Shown: positions 652-45,635 of the stretch, piece after piece
Layout of the letters: every line of letters starts with the position of its first letter
Numbering within the stretch: the first letter of the stretch is position 1
Assembly (NCBI GenBank): GCA_007280905.1
Contig: QYQM01000096.1
Location: forward strand, 1-45,635
Length of the DNA: 45,635 nucleotides
Direction: 5' to 3'
From: Porphyromonadaceae bacterium
Lineage (GTDB): Bacteria > Bacteroidota > Bacteroidia > Bacteroidales > UBA12481
The notes under the pieces: generated by a model
What the model was told of the DNA's origin: nothing
Seen by the model: the letters and a program-made list of their open reading frames with translations, nothing else
Database searches by the model: none
Made by a program: the position numbers and the translations under genes

Positions 652-2544
652 ATGAAAAACCTGGCTCTATTTTTTTTCCTCCTGGCTTTATCAATTCCCG
701 GATTCAGCCAGAAAACCAAAACCGAAGTGTCCCGGTTTCAATATCAGACAAATACCCAAACTTCAACCCCCCAGATCGTCGATACATTCCTGACCGGAAC
801 ACAAGCCCATAACCCTCTCTATTCGACGTTTAGCTCATGGTCCGACCTGGGAAATACCGGTCTTCCGGCCCTGATCAATCAATACCGGCCAATACGGGAA
901 GCTCTTAATCCTTTGATGTTTGAAGGATCCGACGGCTATGGTATCAATAATACAAACCTTGTGTTCTATTCGGCAAACAGCCCGTTCTCCATACTTGGTT
1001 ACAATAGCGGTGGAACCGCTGATAAAAACGGTCAAACCATAAAAGCGTTGTTTGCACGTAACCTTAAGAAAAAAAGCAATATTACCGTATTGGGAAATTA
1101 CTCAAATTCTGACGGCCATTTCAGTAAACAGAAATGTAATTCGTCAGCGATCAGGGTGAATTATCTCCTCATTCGGAAAAACTATAATCTGGTTACCGGA
1201 TTCTCCCGCAATTCTTTCAGCTTTAATGAAAACGGGGGACTTAAATCCGATGAACAGCTAATCGGCGCCTATCTGCCAAACCTGATTCCCGTTAATCTCT
1301 CAGGAGCTGCTACAAAAATGAGCGTTCTTACCTGGCAGGGTGTTCAAACAGGATCTATTCGCCTCCCGGGGAAGCATTCCATCACTCCTGATCAACCTGA
1401 TTCAACAGTCCGCGATAGCTTGTCGGAAACATCTTCGAACAAACATTCCCTCCGTGTTGTACATGCTTTCAGAATTTCCAGTGTATCGCGCAAATACACT
1501 GATTCGAGTTCTGATTCAGATTTTTATCAGAATACCTATTCAGAAGATAAGGCTACTAAAGATTCAATGAGTTTCTTGTCCTGGACAAATGACATTAGCC
1601 TATTATCCGATACCCTGCATATCGGAAAACATCCGGTTGTGCTAAAGGGTGGAATCAATCCCGATTTTTACCGGTATCAATATTCAAATATCGTTTCTAA
1701 TGGCTATTCTCTTGGTCTGAACGGAAAAATCACCAGGAGGGATCAGTTCAATTTTATTGAATTGGCGGGGAACTGGACTGCTGCAGGATATTCTGCCGGA
1801 GATTATAAGCTTGCAGCAACTTACAGCTTGATTCCCGGAAAGATTGAAAACGGATCAGAAATTTCATTCGAACTGTTTGTCAGAGGTTGTTCACCGGATC
1901 CGATAATCCGGGAGTATCAGTCGAATCATTTCCGCTGGACCAACGATTTCTTGCGTCAGCATGAATCAGGACTGAATGTAAAATGGAATGTAACTGAAAT
2001 TCGGTCTGCCCTGGCGGCAAGCATTATCAGCAATAAGGGCTGGATCTATTTTGATACCACCGGAATACCGGCTCAGCTTAAGGACCGCATGACGGTACTA
2101 TCCCTTAAAGGATCAAAGGATTTCACTGCCGGAGCCTTCCGATCGTCAATATCTGCATTGGTACAGTATAGCACTTCGGATAAAATCCGTCTTCCGCTAT
2201 TCGTCGGATCGACATCAACATTTATGCATCATGATATCCGGTTCCCGTCAACCGGTGGTGAAATGCAGGTTGAATACGGCATTGATCTCAGCTATTCCAC
2301 CGGTTTCTATGGTTATGCCTATATGCCGGCGACCGGGATATTCTTTGCCGAGAACGAAAAGGTTTTGGGTAATTATCCTAACCTGAATGTGTTTGCTCAG
2401 ATAAAAGTTAAAAGGACGAGGATGTTTGTTGAATGGGTCCAGACTTTTGCCGGCCTGCTTCCCGAACAGTCCTTTGCTGTGCTTCACTATCCATCGATGA
2501 GGCCACATCTTAAATATGGAATCTACTGGCATTTCTATGATTAA
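652..2544 (+). CDS. Putative outer-membrane porin (Porin_10-like beta-barrel)
   Basis: This 630-residue protein has a clear signal peptide (residues 1-19, cleavage after GFSQ). The rest alternates short polar turns with amphipathic strands rich in Tyr, Phe, Ser and Asn, as in an outer-membrane beta-barrel. The early segment HNPLYSTFSSWSDLGNTG (near residues 53-70) resembles the start of the Bacteroidetes putative porin family Porin_10, and the length fits. The C terminus (KYGIYWHFYD) is aromatic, typical of barrel ends recognised by the BAM machinery. It follows the rRNA terminator directly and overlaps the start of the Nudix gene by a few bases, so the two are probably co-transcribed. The substrate cannot be read from sequence. 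The family assignment is from recalled patterns, not from a search. Confidence 0.75.
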   Translation: MKNLALFFFLLALSIPGFSQKTKTEVSRFQYQTNTQTSTPQIVDTFLTGTQAHNPLYSTFSSWSDLGNTGLPALINQYRPIREALNPLMFEGSDGYGINNTNLVFYSANSPFSILGYNSGGTADKNGQTIKALFARNLKKKSNITVLGNYSNSDGHFSKQKCNSSAIRVNYLLIRKNYNLVTGFSRNSFSFNENGGLKSDEQLIGAYLPNLIPVNLSGAATKMSVLTWQGVQTGSIRLPGKHSITPDQPDSTVRDSLSETSSNKHSLRVVHAFRISSVSRKYTDSSSDSDFYQNTYSEDKATKDSMSFLSWTNDISLLSDTLHIGKHPVVLKGGINPDFYRYQYSNIVSNGYSLGLNGKITRRDQFNFIELAGNWTAAGYSAGDYKLAATYSLIPGKIENGSEISFELFVRGCSPDPIIREYQSNHFRWTNDFLRQHESGLNVKWNVTEIRSALAASIISNKGWIYFDTTGIPAQLKDRMTVLSLKGSKDFTAGAFRSSISALVQYSTSDKIRLPLFVGSTSTFMHHDIRFPSTGGEMQVEYGIDLSYSTGFYGYAYMPATGIFFAENEKVLGNYPNLNVFAQIKVKRTRMFVEWVQTFAGLLPEQSFAVLHYPSMRPHLKYGIYWHFYD

Positions 2545-3166
2545 TAATCAGATGCTTCAGCTCCAGGAATGCCTGAAAAAGGAACTGCCGGGCCCCTCTG
2601 CCCAGGAACTAATGGCTCCTTCAATCCGACCTCCGGGTTTAGCTCAGTTCGATGGAACAAATCCACGATCCAGCGGCGTTATGATCTTGCTATTCCCTTC
2701 AGAGAAAGGCATCAGCACGGTTTTTATTCTGAGAACCCCGGGAGGGATGCATGGCGGGCAAATTTCGCTGCCCGGCGGCAAGCAGGAGAATTCAGATAAG
2801 AATCTTTCAGAAACAGCCAGGCGGGAGACTTTTGAAGAGATTGGAGTTGATCCTGAGTTGATTAAGGAAATCGGTATATTGACTCCTTTGTACGTGCCAC
2901 ACAGTAATTTCATCATCCAGCCGGTTATCGGATATGTTGGGTTTCTTCCCGTTTTTGTTTTAGATCAGAAGGAAGTTGCCGGTGTTATTACAACCCCGTT
3001 AAAGCAACTTTTTGATCCGGATAATCGCAAAACAATGATATTGAATCGCTCAGGTGCGGAGATCGTAGCACCCTATTATGAGGCTTCCGGGCACCGGGTC
3101 TGGGGGGCAACCGCAATGATCATGAGTGAATTTGAACGAATTTTTATTTCCTGTATTTCCGGATAA
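2537..3166 (+). CDS. Nudix hydrolase, CoA-pyrophosphatase-like (NudL type)
   Basis: This is a 209-residue Nudix protein. The region HGGQISLPGG (about residues 72-81) followed by the core REXXEEXG (REtfEEiG, about 96-103) gives the Nudix box. The order resembles CoA pyrophosphatases of the NudL group, including an Asp where classical Nudix boxes have Glu. The likely reaction is hydrolysis of CoA or a similar nucleotide diphosphate derivative, with a metal ion held by the Glu residues. The start is ambiguous: ATG 2516 overlaps the porin gene by 29 bp, ATG 2537 by 8 bp, and ATG 2552 not at all. I chose 2537 as a compact coupled start. The 3' end overlaps the 3' end of gatD on the other strand by 23 bp. 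The substrate is inferred, not shown. Confidence 0.85.
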   Translation: MINNQMLQLQECLKKELPGPSAQELMAPSIRPPGLAQFDGTNPRSSGVMILLFPSEKGISTVFILRTPGGMHGGQISLPGGKQENSDKNLSETARRETFEEIGVDPELIKEIGILTPLYVPHSNFIIQPVIGYVGFLPVFVLDQKEVAGVITTPLKQLFDPDNRKTMILNRSGAEIVAPYYEASGHRVWGATAMIMSEFERIFISCISG

Positions 3167-4529
3167 ATTCCTCAACCTCTGGAACGCCGCCCTGGTAAAC
3201 CAGGTAGCCATTGTAAGGTTCTCGGCCGGTAATCTCTTCATTAACCGGCTTTAACATGATCTCCTTGACTTTTTCGAGATCTGATGTTTGTCCCAGAGCC
3301 CAGCCCAGTTTGATATAGGCAGCTTCCGGCAGCATATTCTCCAAGGGTATAACTCCCATTGCCATGAGGTCGCGGCCGGTATCATAAACATACATGTTGA
3401 CATAACCCCAGAAGGTTTGAACGGTCATGTATATTGCAACTCCGCGGTCGCGGGCTCTTTCAATTGCCGGATATAATTCTTTATTAACATGTCCAAGTCC
3501 TGTGCCGATAATAATGATTCCTTTATACCCCAGATCTACCAATGAGTCAATCGTATCCGGATGCATGTGGGGATAAAAATAGATCATGGAAACCCGGTCT
3601 TCAAAGAAAGGGTAGATATCCACATGCCGGTCTTTCCGGCGGTGGTTGTATTGTTTCTTGATCAGCTTTACTTCTCCACATTTAACAGTGGCTATCGGGG
3701 TGTCGCCAATGGTTCGGAAGGTTGAACGGTAGGAGGAGTGCATTTTCCTTACGCGGGTTCCACGATGCAGGAATCCATATTCGTCGGAAGTGGGTCCGAA
3801 CATACAAACCATAACCTCTGCAATATCTCCATGTCCGGCCGCATAACAGGAATGCATCAGGTTGAGCGCAGCATCGGAGGAGGGTCGGTCGGATGATCGT
3901 TGGGAGCCTACCAGAATGATCGGAATGGGAGGATTCTGTACCATATAGGAAAGTGCCATGGCAGTATGATGAAGAGTATCAGTGCCATGACCGATAACGA
4001 TTCCGTCAACCCCGGTTTCAATTTCTTTTTTAATGGCGACCGCAAGGGCTTTATACTGATCGGGCCCCATATTTTCACTGAAAACCGCAAATACCTTTTC
4101 GGTATTCAGGTTGCAGATGTCAGCAAGTTCGGGTACCGCTCCGTACAATTCCCCGGGTGAAAAGGCGGGAATAACTGCTCCGGTCCGGTAATCCAGGCGG
4201 CTGGCTATAGTTCCGCCGGTGCCGATCAACTTTACCTTAGGAAGATTGGGCGTGAACGGGAATTCCTTTTCGGGAATTTTATAATTTGCCTTAAAATAGT
4301 TTACCTCCTTCATTGACAGGATTGTTTGGGTATCAATCCCGATGTTGTATCCGGTGGCAATTTTAACAACGATGTGATGATCATCATCGTTTTCAGCCCG
4401 CGGCAGAACGGTGCCTTTGAAAAAACCCCGCGTTGTTTCGAATTCGGCGATACCCCAGACTCTGACATTAAACTTTTTCAGTATCTGGAGGCCATCACCT
4501 TTATATCCCTGGAAAAAATCTTCGTTCAT
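3144..4529 (-). CDS. gatD: Glutamyl-tRNA(Gln) amidotransferase subunit D, archaeal type
   Basis: GatD is the glutaminase subunit of the GatDE amidotransferase. It frees ammonia from Gln (or Asn), which GatE uses to convert Glu-tRNA(Gln) to Gln-tRNA(Gln). The protein has 461 residues. Residues 1-85 form the GatD-specific N-terminal domain (DDDHHIVVKIATGYNIGI, about 48-65), absent from ordinary asparaginases. An asparaginase-type domain follows, with GTGGTIAS at 103-110 (nucleophile Thr107), HGTDT at 181-185 (Thr183, Asp184) and a Lys at 262 in RVRKMHSS. These match the Thr/Thr/Asp/Lys set of archaeal GatD. The ATG overlaps the gatE stop (ATGA), implying translational coupling. A plain type I asparaginase would lack the N-terminal domain and the gatE partner. 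GatD is regarded as an archaeal protein, so its presence here is notable. Confidence 0.93.
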   Translation of the reverse strand: MNEDFFQGYKGDGLQILKKFNVRVWGIAEFETTRGFFKGTVLPRAENDDDHHIVVKIATGYNIGIDTQTILSMKEVNYFKANYKIPEKEFPFTPNLPKVKLIGTGGTIASRLDYRTGAVIPAFSPGELYGAVPELADICNLNTEKVFAVFSENMGPDQYKALAVAIKKEIETGVDGIVIGHGTDTLHHTAMALSYMVQNPPIPIILVGSQRSSDRPSSDAALNLMHSCYAAGHGDIAEVMVCMFGPTSDEYGFLHRGTRVRKMHSSYRSTFRTIGDTPIATVKCGEVKLIKKQYNHRRKDRHVDIYPFFEDRVSMIYFYPHMHPDTIDSLVDLGYKGIIIIGTGLGHVNKELYPAIERARDRGVAIYMTVQTFWGYVNMYVYDTGRDLMAMGVIPLENMLPEAAYIKLGWALGQTSDLEKVKEIMLKPVNEEITGREPYNGYLVYQGGVPEVEEFIRKYRK

Positions 4530-6538
4530 AACGGATCGGTGGACAATGGTTCGGAAATTTCTTTTGCTATCTGGACTTCAATAAGCTGACTGAACTCGTT
4601 CAATGGAATATTGCCGAGTGCCTGGTTGCGGATTTGACCCATTAACCAGTTCAGCGTAACCTCCGGATGATCGGATTTTCTGATCTCACGGAACTTTCTG
4701 ATGAGAAAGATCACCGGTGCCAGCAATTCTTCCTGTGTTCGTTTTTTGAACTTCAAACTGGTCAGGATACTCGCGACATCCATTTTTGGATAATCCATGA
4801 GGATTGCCAAAATAGGTTTGGCAATAGCGGGGTCGAGACGGTTCGATCGGATGAAATTGAAAAGATCATAGATTTTTTGCGGAGAAAACTCCTTATGCGG
4901 CTGTTTTTGCCCTTCGAGATGCTTCAAGGTATGCCCCAGAAAGATGCCGATGACTTTATGTGTAAAACCAAACTCATCTGAAATTCTCTCAATTAAAGGA
5001 ACCAGATTCTTCTTCAAAAGGTAATGATAAGTATCGGATGGTATTCCCCATTCCTTCATCTGAGATATTCTGGTACTGACCGGTACCGGGAGTTTCTGGC
5101 CCAGCCGGCTGATGTATTCTTCGGACAAGGGGATCGGGGCCGTATCGGTATCAGGATACATGCGGTCGGCACCGGGCAGCACCCGTTCGAAAATGGTAGT
5201 GCCGTTGGTGAGTGCCTTTCGGGTTTCCCTTGGAACCTGGTCAAATGCCATCAGGCAGCGCTCCTGGATAGTTTCCAAAGCCGTTTTAATATCTGCTTCC
5301 GGGCCCCAGAACACGATCTGGGCATCATTATCATTGCTGTTTAGCCATTTCCTGATTTTATCAAAATCGATGTGATTGCCTTCATTTTCAATTGATTCAG
5401 AGCTGGCCATGTTGGGCTTTTCGATGCAGGCAATTACTTTTAACCGGTCGGATATCTCGTCTGAAAAACATTTTCCGGGCTGCGTAAAATGAGAAAGAAT
5501 TCCCTGAAAGGCAGGAAGGTTTACAGCCATGATGCGGTAGCCGTTTTTCCGGGCATCGTTAATGATTTGGTAGTCAGAGTTTAATTTTTCGTAAACAAGG
5601 GGAATAGATTTGATTTGCCAGGTTCTTTTGTCCGAAATACGTTCCTTGAGTAAATCCTTGATTCTCAGCAGGGCAAACTGCCGGAAAGCTTCATTATGGC
5701 TCAGCCGGGGGATCCATTTGTTATGAGAAACCCCCTTGATTTCGACACGGTCGCCTCCGCGGCAACTAACGTTTACATCTTCCCGTCCCGAGCCGATACC
5801 GGTTCTTACCCGGCCAGTGCTGCGGTTGAGAAAACGGATATATTCTGCGGCTTCACGGAGTTCGAAGGGGGTTTCACAATCCGGATAGGTAACGGTTTCT
5901 ATCAGGGGCATACCCAGGCGGTCGGTTTTATACATCCTGGTGTGACCGATATCTGAAATTTCACGGCAGGAATCTTCTTCGATGCTAAGCTGTATCAATC
6001 TGATTTTTTTGGTGGATAATTGGATTTCACCTTCCACACCGAGGATCGCTGTACGCTGAAACCCGGTTGGTATACTGCCGTCGAGATATTGTTTGCGGGT
6101 GATGTGAACTTCTCCAACAATATTGAGATTAGAGAGCAACGAGATTTCGAGGGCATAATCCAGGGCTTCCCTGTTTATCTTGAAAGGCGGTGTATCATCA
6201 ATATCGTACGTACACGCATTTTCATTATTCAGCCGGTAGATAATCTCTTTCCGGGTTTTAAATTCCATAAGTGCGGTTCCGTCATATTCACCCATTTCAC
6301 TGAGGGTTGGGCGCATATGGCGGATCAATTCACCATCGTAATCCTCATCCTGATTATAGATACCTGCCGGGCATCTGCAGAAGAGTTTTTCACGGGTATT
6401 GAGTTGCTGATGAACCTCCAATCCTGACATGAAACCAATTCTTTTCCAGTCATCAACGGTGGCTTGGTGAAGAGGAACGTAACCGATTGCAATCCCTGAT
6501 TCCAGGTGGTTATGAACAGCATCAAATGAGTTTCTCAT
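4526..6538 (-). CDS. gatE: Glutamyl-tRNA(Gln) amidotransferase subunit E, archaeal type
   Basis: GatE is the tRNA-binding and kinase/transamidase subunit of archaeal-type GatDE. The protein has 670 residues. The core (GLEVHQQLNT at 39-48, KLFCRCPA at 51-58, then MRPTLSEMGEYDG and DIDDTPPFKINREALD) is the GatE form of the GatB/GatE fold. GatB would start differently and lack the inserted domain. An AspRS-like (GAD) insertion is visible around residues 435-465 (ETRKALTNGTT, PGADRMYPDTD). The C-terminal ~190 residues form the helical YqeY-like tail that holds the tRNA elbow. About 30 residues precede the usual archaeal start. The gene begins 24 bp after the permease stop and overlaps gatD by 4 bp, giving the order permease-gatE-gatD. 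The ATP-binding and ammonia-tunnel residues were not checked one by one. Confidence 0.94.
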   Translation of the reverse strand: MRNSFDAVHNHLESGIAIGYVPLHQATVDDWKRIGFMSGLEVHQQLNTREKLFCRCPAGIYNQDEDYDGELIRHMRPTLSEMGEYDGTALMEFKTRKEIIYRLNNENACTYDIDDTPPFKINREALDYALEISLLSNLNIVGEVHITRKQYLDGSIPTGFQRTAILGVEGEIQLSTKKIRLIQLSIEEDSCREISDIGHTRMYKTDRLGMPLIETVTYPDCETPFELREAAEYIRFLNRSTGRVRTGIGSGREDVNVSCRGGDRVEIKGVSHNKWIPRLSHNEAFRQFALLRIKDLLKERISDKRTWQIKSIPLVYEKLNSDYQIINDARKNGYRIMAVNLPAFQGILSHFTQPGKCFSDEISDRLKVIACIEKPNMASSESIENEGNHIDFDKIRKWLNSNDNDAQIVFWGPEADIKTALETIQERCLMAFDQVPRETRKALTNGTTIFERVLPGADRMYPDTDTAPIPLSEEYISRLGQKLPVPVSTRISQMKEWGIPSDTYHYLLKKNLVPLIERISDEFGFTHKVIGIFLGHTLKHLEGQKQPHKEFSPQKIYDLFNFIRSNRLDPAIAKPILAILMDYPKMDVASILTSLKFKKRTQEELLAPVIFLIRKFREIRKSDHPEVTLNWLMGQIRNQALGNIPLNEFSQLIEVQIAKEISEPLSTDPL

Positions 6539-6562: not shown

Positions 6563-7804
6563 TTAGTCAAATTTTATAGTTTTTCCCGGGCTGATACGGG
6601 TTAATAACGTTGAAGGAATCAGCATCATAACAAGGGTTAGTACCAGTGTTCCGGTATTCAGTAGTAGCAGATGGAGGGGGTTGATAAGAATGGGTACGGA
6701 ATCAACAAAATAGGATTGAGGATTAAGTGGTATCAGCCGGAACCGATCCTGGATTAACGCCAGGGTCAATCCTATAAGATTGCCCAGAATCAATCCCTTC
6801 CCAATGATGTATCCTGCCTGGTAAAGAAATATCCGTGCCATAGATCTGTTATCGGTTCCAAGAGCTTTCAGGGTTCCGATCATTTTGGTGCGGTCGAGAA
6901 TTATGATTAGTAGCCCTGATATCATATTAAATCCTGCTATCAGGATCATAAGCGTTAATATCACCCATACATTGGTGTCGGTTAAACTCAGAAAATCAAA
7001 AAAGCCGGGAGCCAGATCTCGTAAAGTTTTGATTTGCAGAATATTATTGGTTTGAATGATGGTTTTGTCAATGGATTCACGAATTCGTGCAGCAACCTGA
7101 TCCATTTTTGCAGGATTAAATAGCCTGATTTCAAAACCACTGATCTCACCTGATTTCCAATTATTAATCTCCCTGATTTGCGAAAGACTGCAATAGACAA
7201 AAACCTTGTCATATTCCTCCAATCCGGTATCGTAGATTCCACAAACCTTAAATGGCCGCATCCTTGGCGGATCCTGGATAAAGTAGGTGGGCAGTATCAT
7301 ACCTGCTTTGATCCGGAGAAGGCGGGCCAGTGATTTTGATATCAGGACTTCAAGAGAGTCGGGATTATTGAGATCGGGAATCCTGCCTGCAGAAAGGTTC
7401 CTGGAAAAAAAATCCCAGTTATAACCGGGATCCACACCCTTCAGGATAATTCCTTGTAATTCCTTGCCTGACTGCACAATACCCGGTTTTGTGGCAAACG
7501 GATAAATACCACTGATATCCGGATCCAGTTTAAGCTGTTCTAAAAAGGGCTGGTCGATGCTGATGGGGCCGGCTTCCCAAGAATTATTAGCCGTGAGGCT
7601 ACTGATTTGAATATGGGAACCAAAACCGGTAAGTTTATCTTTGATTTCCTTTTTAAAGCCGGTGAGGATGGCGACAGACAGTATCATCACTGCCAAACTC
7701 AGGGAAATAGCTATAACGGAAACATTAACCAGTGCATTTGCACCTGATTTTTTACCCGGGCGGCTCCGGATGATTTTTTTTACGATGAAAATTTCGAAAT
7801 TCAC
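6563..7804 (-). CDS. LolC/LolE-type ABC transporter permease (FtsX family)
   Basis: This 413-residue inner-membrane permease has the layout of lipoprotein-releasing LolC/LolE proteins. There is one N-terminal transmembrane helix (about 25-50, LVNVSVIAISLSLAVMIL), a large periplasmic domain (about 55-270), and three C-terminal helices in an FtsX domain (MISGLLIIILDRTKMIGTLK is the usual FtsX coupling segment). With the ATPase LolD it would extract lipoproteins from the inner membrane and hand them to LolA. No ATPase lies next to it; a LolD-like gene is at 36784. It is the first gene of a run with gatE and gatD, with no terminator between. It diverges from namZ, with 34 bp between the two start codons (7804 and 7839). 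The exact cargo is inferred. Confidence 0.88.
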   Translation of the reverse strand: MNFEIFIVKKIIRSRPGKKSGANALVNVSVIAISLSLAVMILSVAILTGFKKEIKDKLTGFGSHIQISSLTANNSWEAGPISIDQPFLEQLKLDPDISGIYPFATKPGIVQSGKELQGIILKGVDPGYNWDFFSRNLSAGRIPDLNNPDSLEVLISKSLARLLRIKAGMILPTYFIQDPPRMRPFKVCGIYDTGLEEYDKVFVYCSLSQIREINNWKSGEISGFEIRLFNPAKMDQVAARIRESIDKTIIQTNNILQIKTLRDLAPGFFDFLSLTDTNVWVILTLMILIAGFNMISGLLIIILDRTKMIGTLKALGTDNRSMARIFLYQAGYIIGKGLILGNLIGLTLALIQDRFRLIPLNPQSYFVDSVPILINPLHLLLLNTGTLVLTLVMMLIPSTLLTRISPGKTIKFD

Positions 7805-7838: not shown

Positions 7839-9053
7839 ATGAAGTTAAAACGTGCGTTGTGGCTGGTTATCCTGCTCCATTCCTGGATCGGAATTCAGGC
7901 GCAGTTAATTCCCGGTCTAAAGCAATCCCATATTTTGTGCGGTGCTGACCGGACTGATGCTTACCTGAATCTGATCACAGGGAAGAATATCGGGGTTGTG
8001 GCCAATCCCACCAGCCGTGTTGGATCGGTGCATCTCGTGGATTCTCTGGTTCACTCCGGCGTAAGGGTGATAAAAATATTTGCGCCTGAGCATGGATTCA
8101 GGGGGGAAGGTGAGGCAGGAGCTTCTATCCGTGATGGGCTTGATCCCGTTACCACTATTCCGGTGATTTCGCTTTATGGTAATCACAAGAAACCCAGTCC
8201 GGCAGATCTCACCGGACTCGACCTGGTTATATTCGATATTCAGGATATGGGGGTTCGGTTCTATACCTATATTTCAACACTTCATCTGGTTATGGAGGCA
8301 TGCGCCACTGCAGGGAAACCATTATTGGTGCTCGACAGGCCGAATCCCAATGGGTTTTATATCGACGGGCCGATCCTGGATACGGCTTACAGATCGTTTG
8401 TCGGGATGCATCCGGTTCCGGTTGTTCATGGCATGACTATCGGAGAATATGCCCGGATGATCAATGGTGAGCACTGGCTGCAGGATGGTATTCAATGCGA
8501 TCTGACTGTGATAAAATGTGCCGGGTATGATCATCAGACCGAATATATATTGCCTGTAAAACCATCACCGAATCTGCCTGACCAGGTTTCGGTTTATCTA
8601 TATCCTTCATTATGTTTTTTTGAGGGATCGATCATCAGTATTGGACGGGGTACCGAATTTCCTTTTCAGGTTTACGGACATCCGGCCATGTCGGGAGAAT
8701 TCAGGTTTACCCCGAAATCTTTACCCGGGATCAGCCTGCATCCACTCTATGAAAACAAGGCATGTTACGGGCGGGACCTTCGCCGGGATGGAATTCGTGA
8801 ATTCTCCCAACAACCAGGGCTTATTCTGGAATGGCTGATCGATGCCTATCAAAAGATGAATAGAAGTGGCGGTTTCTTTACTGATTATTTTGATACCCTT
8901 GCCGGCACAAACCAACTCAGGATTCAGATACAGAACGGGAGATCCCCGGAGGAGATCCGGGCAGGTTGGGAGCCGGGATTGAGCAAGTATCAGGAAATGA
9001 GATCGAAATATCTGCTCTATGAGGATAGCGAACTGTGTTTAAGGCTCAAGTAA
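7839..9053 (+). CDS. namZ: NamZ-type exo-beta-N-acetylmuramidase (DUF1343, GH171)
   Basis: The protein has 404 residues with a signal peptide (1-22, cleavage near IQAQ). The conserved DUF1343 blocks are visible: NIGVVANPTSRV, IFAPEHGFRGEGEAGA, DLVIFDIQDMGVRFYTYIST, VLDRPNPNG, PVVHGMTIGEYA and SIGRGTEFPFQVYG. DUF1343 proteins are now known as NamZ exo-lytic N-acetylmuramidases, which release MurNAc from the non-reducing end of peptidoglycan fragments. The role here would be periplasmic wall recycling or scavenging. An upstream TTG at 7821 is in frame, but the start at ATG 7839 gives a proper signal peptide. The stop codon lies inside short AAGGCTC repeats (9041-9064), so the last residues (LRLK) are encoded by repeat DNA. 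Confidence 0.9.
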   Translation: MKLKRALWLVILLHSWIGIQAQLIPGLKQSHILCGADRTDAYLNLITGKNIGVVANPTSRVGSVHLVDSLVHSGVRVIKIFAPEHGFRGEGEAGASIRDGLDPVTTIPVISLYGNHKKPSPADLTGLDLVIFDIQDMGVRFYTYISTLHLVMEACATAGKPLLVLDRPNPNGFYIDGPILDTAYRSFVGMHPVPVVHGMTIGEYARMINGEHWLQDGIQCDLTVIKCAGYDHQTEYILPVKPSPNLPDQVSVYLYPSLCFFEGSIISIGRGTEFPFQVYGHPAMSGEFRFTPKSLPGISLHPLYENKACYGRDLRRDGIREFSQQPGLILEWLIDAYQKMNRSGGFFTDYFDTLAGTNQLRIQIQNGRSPEEIRAGWEPGLSKYQEMRSKYLLYEDSELCLRLK

Positions 9054-9064
9054 GGCTCAAGGCT
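9041..9064 (+). repeat. Short AAGGCTC repeats spanning the namZ stop codon
   Basis: Two full copies of AAGGCTC (9041-9047 and 9052-9058) and a partial third (9059-9064) flank and include the namZ TAA at 9051-9053. The same heptamer is expanded to five tandem copies just after mutS at 45599. The rest of the spacer to 9271 is AT-rich with no recognised element. Confidence 0.8.
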
Positions 9065-9271
9065 AGACCACAATGGAAAGCAGGAGTTCGATCAGATGCA
9101 ATTGTCCAGCGTCAATCATGAGTTCCGGTTTATTGGCTGAAAGTAGATCCCGGGGCATTGAAAAAAAAGGACAGAAAAAGTGCGAGGTATTTTTTTAACT
9201 TTCGGACGGAGCGCTTTTGAAACCGACCCGATTAAGCCTGATCCCAAGAGAACCTTTAAGTATTTACCAAA

Positions 9272-45598: not shown

Positions 45599-45635
45599 AA
45601 GGCTCAAGGCTCAAGGCTCAAGGCTCAAGGCTCAA
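45599..45635 (+). repeat. AAGGCTC tandem heptamers after mutS (cut by window edge)
   Basis: Five perfect copies of AAGGCTC plus AA run to the end of the window, starting three bases after the mutS stop. The same unit occurs at the namZ stop (9041). Confidence 0.95.

Follow-up and report, generated by a model that had tools for sequence, protein, structure and literature searches.

Background

According to a review, GatDE is the Glu-tRNA(Gln) amidotransferase of archaea, to which it is confined today (PMC9499178). A second amidotransferase, GatCAB, is retained by the bacterium Bdellovibrio bacteriovorus despite the presence of both asparaginyl-tRNA synthetase (AsnRS) and glutaminyl-tRNA synthetase (GlnRS); this bacterium can make asparagine on tRNA and has no asparagine synthetase (PMC4206432). 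Here we describe a gatE-gatD gene pair in the contig QYQM01000096.1 of a Porphyromonadaceae bacterium from the phylum Bacteroidota (hereinafter, the window, that is, the whole stretch of 45,635 nucleotides that was analysed). We conclude that this pair represents a genuine bacterial GatDE under selection. By analogy with the archaeal enzyme, we tentatively favor, with a confidence that falls somewhat short of even, the interpretation that the two genes encode a working amidotransferase that depends on tRNA, belongs to a bacterial subfamily of GatDE and would most likely act on Glu-tRNA(Gln) beside GlnRS.

Identity of the gene pair

The gatE gene (positions 4526 to 6538, minus strand) encodes a protein of 670 amino acids with a GatB-like kinase/amidotransferase cradle, an insertion at the place where archaeal GatE has the GAD domain, and a helical, YqeY-like tail, and gatD (3144 to 4529, minus strand) encodes a protein of 461 amino acids that combines the GatD_N domain with a type I asparaginase-like domain. 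Against curated, equivalog-level models, GatE scored 473.3 bits with NCBIfam NF003107 (cut-off 456) and 407.6 bits with TIGR00134 (cut-off 319.55), and GatD scored 499.2 bits with TIGR02153 (cut-off 324); in the Pfam search, GatE matched the GatB/GatE catalytic domain, and GatD matched GatD_N along with the two asparaginase domains. The solved structures closest to GatE are 2d6f_C (2.6e-86) and 1zq1_C (2e-79), followed by a GatB (1.1e-20), and those closest to GatD are 1zq1_A (1.1e-113) and 2d6f_A (8.6e-111), followed by an asparaginase (2.7e-39); we take 2d6f and 1zq1 to be the GatDE of M. thermautotrophicus and P. abyssi, respectively. The GAD-insertion region aligns with archaeal GatE, and the Pfam GAD model gave no match at an E-value of 1e-3. 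An AlphaFold model of GatE, made from an 11-row alignment, had a mean pLDDT (predicted local distance difference test) of 60, too low for an assessment of the GAD insertion.

The likeness to archaeal GatDE (2d6f, 1zq1) takes in both subunits, the domain order, the catalytic residues of GatD and GatE, and an alignment of nearly full length; the differences are that the host here is a bacterium with GlnRS and a bacterial-type tRNA(Gln), and that bacterial GatE occupies its own side of the tree and has fixed residues of its own. With GatCAB, the relationship consists in the homology of the GatE cradle and kinase residues to those of GatB, but the scores of GatE with the GatB models are far lower (at most 135 bits, with cut-offs of at least 314.8), which leaves it outside that family; the partner is of the GatD type instead of GatA, and the window genome has no GatB. 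The larger, C-terminal part of GatD, with its Thr/Thr/Asp/Lys site, resembles type I L-asparaginase, from which GatD differs in that it carries the GatD_N domain, passes the GatD cut-off and has gatE as a partner.

The original prediction had recognized in these genes both subunits of GatDE in a bacterial chromosome, arranged in the order gatE-gatD with an ATGA overlap, both intact, and had assigned to GatD a specific N-terminal domain along with Thr107, Thr183, Asp184 and Lys262. All this stands: the equivalog cut-offs and the matches to the archaeal GatDE structures identify both subunits, the gatE stop and the gatD start share the ATGA at positions 4526 to 4529 (minus strand), both genes have full reading frames, pass their family cut-offs and keep the catalytic residues, and the Pfam search finds GatD_N, with the four residues at the predicted positions.

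Sequence conservation and selection

The four active-site residues of GatD are invariant in all 74 bacterial rows of the alignment (taken from 79 sequences with a match, the shorter ones having been dropped). Similarly, 15 residues are common to archaeal GatE and GatB (E41, H43, Q45, R148, K149, Q161, E187, E188, R207, E214, R252, D254, N256, E266 and K268), and all of these are kept in bacterial GatE, Q45 in 85 of the 86 rows and each of the others in all 86, with 85 of the rows being distinct in the central part. In the alignment, H43, E187 and E214 correspond to H15, E157 and E184 of M. thermautotrophicus GatE, which presumably act in catalysis as kinase/Mg residues.

In the comparison of the window with L004, a contig of a Bacteroidetes metagenome-assembled genome (MAG), the nonsynonymous divergence (dN) was 0.075 for gatE, 0.029 for gatD and 0.068 for valS; the synonymous divergence (dS) was saturated and not computable for these three genes, and was 1.6 to 2.5 for three other neighbour genes. 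Another contig, L060, yielded values identical to those for L004 and probably represents the same genome. By these dN values, the constraint on gatE and gatD is about that on an essential synthetase. Both genes are under purifying selection.

Phylogeny and distribution

A phylogenetic tree of 63 rows (54 chosen bacterial GatE, three archaeal GatE and six GatB), rooted on GatB, placed archaeal GatE on one side (support 100/99) and bacterial GatE on the other (92/63), and the bacterial side comprised a clade of 26 rows, of the Bacteroidales type except for one (100/100), and a clade of 27 rows from other classes (91/98); the weak points of this tree are bootstrap values that had not settled, long branches at the root and the inclusion of three archaeal rows only, one of them in two frames. 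With three archaeal sequences available, the position of the bacterial rows outside them has little bearing on the bacterial clade nested within Archaea that the original prediction foresaw. The archaeal row in two frames is the gatE of L063 (Natrinema thermotolerans plasmid CP031304.1), which corresponds to no listed gene and reads in two frames, either through a sequencing frameshift or as a pseudogene. The GatE of L095 (genome G548, another class) lies inside the Bacteroidales-type clade, and four other genomes with the same family code fall within the other-class clade; this pattern points to misbinning or to a transfer between classes.

Among 200 columns that are invariant in the three archaeal GatE sequences, 87 have the same residue in more than 95% of the 86 bacterial rows, and 25 have a different residue in more than 80% of them. 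At archaeal-invariant columns, bacterial GatE has fixed T110, C191, T215 and D463 (84 to 86 of the 86 rows); GatB agrees with the archaeal residue at columns 110, 215 and 463, and C191 and T215 are near the catalytic E187 and E214 in the sequence. As part of the best explanation of these comparisons, the gatDE of the window would belong to a long-established bacterial (Bacteroidota) subfamily of GatDE.

GatE exceeded the cut-off in 156 of the 393 genomes drawn from the order of the window and in 30 of the 395 drawn from across the phylum, including the window genome itself; both draws are samples and not a census. The named relatives are 16 MAG contigs labelled Bacteroidetes, Bacteroidota or Bacteroidales and one labelled Myxococcota. 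The latter, L019, is a contig of 4.3 kb, and its GatD is 74% identical to that of the window, a closeness to the Bacteroidales GatD that makes misbinning likely. In 31 of the 34 stretches examined (33 from relatives, and the window), gatD lies downstream of gatE in the same orientation, with another gene in between in L179 and L183; in L177, L279 and L290, a search of the 0.6 to 1.5 kb that remain up to the contig ends revealed no gatD. Besides gatD, even the commonest neighbours occur in only six of the 34 stretches. Thus, with surroundings that are variable apart from gatD, the two genes are kept together as a pair that has no fixed partner. A pair of tRNA-Leu and tRNA-Gly genes adjoins gatD in L018 (6895 to 7109) and lies upstream of gatE in L289 (3306 to 3508). 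One scan of viral_contigs with two peptide patterns yielded no GatE relative, and a plasmid collection contained one archaeal GatE, the two-frame Natrinema sequence, along with six weaker matches, of which four carry a GatB annotation.

Within the sampled groups, the presence of GatE is patchy, with 16 changes on a GluRS (glutamyl-tRNA synthetase) tree of 75 genomes and GatE-less members in several families. Such patchiness is what one might see if the genes had been transferred from archaea and survived only as a nonfunctional relic, a scenario that we consider very improbable: among the GatE places listed, only five (G024, G034, G085, G089 and G360) contain an internal stop, one TAA each, the catalytic residues are invariant, dN is low, and the two genes stay together. 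The original view of a fixed gene pair agrees with the maintenance of GatDE in a large bacterial group, of which the pair in the window is one instance among many.

Possible substrates

The chemistry we infer from archaeal GatDE: GatD would use glutamine or asparagine as a source of ammonia, and GatE would activate the side-chain carboxylate of an amino acid attached to the wrong tRNA and then amidate it. With Glu-tRNA(Gln) as the most likely substrate, the enzyme would supply Gln-tRNA(Gln) by a second route next to that of GlnRS, as a back-up or for repair, which seems to be the most economical function for the pair.

The window genome (99.27% complete, 185 contigs) encodes, by the curated models, GlnRS, AsnRS, lysyl-tRNA synthetase (LysRS), one GluRS and one aspartyl-tRNA synthetase (AspRS). 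Its GlnRS (517 amino acids, cut off by the end of the 2939-base contig L002) scored 673 bits with glnS (cut-off 425.8), and GatE and GlnRS occur together in all five sampled genomes of the genus, that of the window included. In the order sample, glnS was over the cut-off in 357 of the 393 genomes; in a tally from best E-values, GlnRS was present in about 142 of the 156 genomes with GatE versus about 215 of the 237 without GatE over the cut-off, a few of which hold partial hits. GatDE thus does not take the place of GlnRS, and the loss of GlnRS that the original prediction anticipated has not occurred here or in most of the GatE genomes. The 14 GatE genomes in which it is missing are G009, G034, G075, G127, G130, G141, G180, G202, G246, G250, G253, G325, G342 and G346, and G034, G075 and G346 among them are at least 95% complete. 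The expected absence of gatCAB was confirmed in part: a search for the GatB/GatE family found only gatE in the window genome, GatA and GatC not having been searched for. The review describes all known archaea as devoid of GlnRS (PMC9499178); the GlnRS of the GatDE-bearing bacterium here is a property of the host and not of the enzyme. In four other genomes of the order (G014, G077, G154 and G181), no GlnRS was found, and the hits to the GatE models were weak and GatB-like; a few lineages such as these may have exchanged GlnRS for a putative GatCAB.

Several observations weigh against Glu-tRNA(Gln) as the substrate. Given the GlnRS of the window genome and of the great majority of the GatE genomes, the need for a second route is not evident, and the 25 divergent columns of GatE may reflect another specificity. 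In other classes, 26 of the 29 GatE genomes have at least two Glx-type synthetase genes, and G704 and G677, at 99% completeness, combine GatE and a single GluRS with a full-length GatB, no GlnRS having been found. Furthermore, both tRNA(Gln) genes of the window genome have U1:A72, G12:C23 and A73 (positions counted by hand), whereas archaeal tRNA(Gln) has A1:U72 and C12:G23, and archaeal GatDE reads tRNA(Gln) via the D-loop and A1:U72 (PMC9499178); tRNA recognition by bacterial GatDE must, therefore, differ in part. Finally, Arg358 gave no sign of a relaxed GluRS, although this marker proved powerless in the phylum, as described below.

Three related observations can be added. The gene set of G704 and G677 is that of an archaeon, in a bacterium. 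In G641, a GatE genome of another class, one Glx-type synthetase fragment was found. The review calls A73 of tRNA(Gln) archaeal (PMC9499178), but A73 is also present in three phage tRNA(Gln) genes (from a crAss-like, a Cellulophaga and a Bacteroides phage) and so is probably a phylum trait, and we dropped it as an archaeal-type signal.

Arg358, which we take to mark a discriminating GluRS, is present in all 75 GluRS compared (38 with GatE and 37 without; 80 genomes were searched, and five had no match at an E-value of 1e-50). In a control, it was found also in 35 of 35 further GluRS, many of them from genomes in which only one Glx-type synthetase was found (G672, G434, G467, G688, G397, G077, G014, G136, G046, G154, G704 and G677). 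Because Arg occurs even in relatives that have no GlnRS and in which GluRS would have to be relaxed, this residue, which shows no contrast with or without GatE or GlnRS, was abandoned as a test of the non-discriminating GluRS called for by the original prediction.

Conceivably, bacterial GatDE could instead amidate Asp-tRNA(Asn), making asparagine on tRNA in bacteria that lack asparagine synthetase. We regard this possibility as unlikely, although it has a precedent in the GatCAB of Bdellovibrio (PMC4206432), and the window genome has AsnRS, AspRS and GlnRS but no AsnA or AsnB that could be found in the draft (best TIGR01536 E-value 1.2e-11). In 40 genomes with GatE and 40 without, hand-picked from the order list at 92 to 100% completeness, AsnA or AsnB of the E. 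coli type (the AsnB types being sorted by hand on length and score) was present in nine of the former, plus one AsnA fragment, versus 28 of the latter (Fisher p 4e-5). When the larger AsnB-like paralogues were counted, the difference shrank to 21 versus 31 (p 0.03). Moreover, correction for kinship on the GluRS tree, with 75 of the 80 genomes, left seven independent pairs with a difference in GatE, of which about one also shows a difference in asparagine synthetase, which is no support; with so few pairs, the association may be purely one of kinship. Two members of the genus of the window, G233 and G311, have GatE together with E. coli-type AsnB, and among eight GatE-less genomes from GatE-holding families, seven (G001, G049, G071, G073, G101, G115 and G148) lack both AsnA and E. 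coli-type AsnB, whereas the eighth, G032, has AsnA. The association, strong in the raw table and lost on correction, was accordingly set aside as evidence.

GatDE is not known to perform the amidation that yields asparagine. In archaea, this task belongs to GatCAB (PMC9499178). The situation here resembles that in Bdellovibrio in that an amidotransferase is kept in a genome with the two direct synthetases and without a recognizable asparagine synthetase, and differs from it in the enzyme family, in the AsnB of two GatE-bearing congeners and in the lack of signs of a relaxed AspRS. His31/Gly82, which we take to be the mark of a relaxed AspRS, is absent from the AspRS of the window genome as from all 31 compared (15 from genomes with GatE, 16 from genomes lacking it; 30 loci from 80 genomes searched and that of the window), and, for lack of contrast between the two sets, was dropped as a discriminator. 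No tRNA-Asn was detected among 30 loci of the window genome scanned with ARAGORN, out of 35 tRNA matches (150 of 249 candidates scored); the five remaining matches, with lengths of 82 to 87 bases, may represent tRNA-Leu or tRNA-Ser. The absence is probably an assembly or search gap.

More generally, bacterial GatDE might have moved to some other substrate, either another mischarged tRNA or a target of amidation outside translation, which we consider unlikely. Coexistence with GlnRS in most of the genomes examined and with GatB in at least two implies that neither standard need explains GatDE, and the residues fixed in bacterial GatE at positions 110, 191, 215 and 463 count in favor of a shifted substrate. 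Nevertheless, the residues that serve tRNA-dependent amidation are retained, and no neighbour gene indicates another pathway, the few recurrent neighbours being as rare as noted above. A distinct Bacteroidota GatDE with a shifted specificity, for example, for Asp-tRNA(Asn), such that some of these bacteria would make asparagine on tRNA despite having AsnRS and GlnRS, with a family not known for that reaction, likewise appears rather doubtful. On balance, we retain amidation of Glu-tRNA(Gln) beside GlnRS as the tentative assignment.

Genomic surroundings

Upstream of gatE, separated by 24 bases and on the same strand, lies a LolCE-type permease gene (6563 to 7804, minus strand), which is linked to gatDE in some relatives only. 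A convergent NUDIX hydrolase gene (2516 to 3166, plus strand) shares 23 bases with the 3' end of gatD. The neighbours recognized by profile matches, namely, the LolCE-type permease, Porin_10, NamZ, ValS and DUF1573, fit Bacteroidetes, and several of them are syntenic on the Bacteroidetes MAG contigs L004 and L006. The assembly is a 185-contig draft, so archaeal contamination or misbinning should be considered, but we find it barely credible: genes of the Bacteroidetes type flank the pair on both sides, the synteny extends to L004 and L006, and, elsewhere, GatE is present on assemblies of one contig (G214, G312, G524 and G684) or two contigs (G303). The prediction that the pair is not an archaeal contaminant is thereby upheld.

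A 7-base repeat, AAGGCTC/AAGGCGC, is located between genes at positions 9042 to 9070 and 45600 to 45635 of the window, and the same repeat entered the GluRS gene in frame on contig L003 (1387 to 1445, and 2573 to 2732, covering the gene and its 5' end). Genus mates have different letters and lengths at these GluRS-gene and intergenic places. The window ends in this repeat, and the assembly may have broken there.

Implications

We found no report of a bacterial GatDE in the open-licence PubMed Central literature. The many bacterial genomes described here that have GatDE and GlnRS together stand against the statement in the review that this enzyme is confined to archaea. If the enzyme indeed acts on Glu-tRNA(Gln), these organisms would be the missing dual-route bacteria; if the substrate is Asp-tRNA(Asn), it would be a new one for GatDE. 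Arguments have been made in the same review for co-evolution of GatDE with archaeal tRNA(Gln) and for a possible descent of bacteria from a population that had no GatDE (PMC9499178). Either outcome would bear on both the co-evolution of GatDE with tRNA(Gln) and the proposed GatDE-less ancestry of bacteria.

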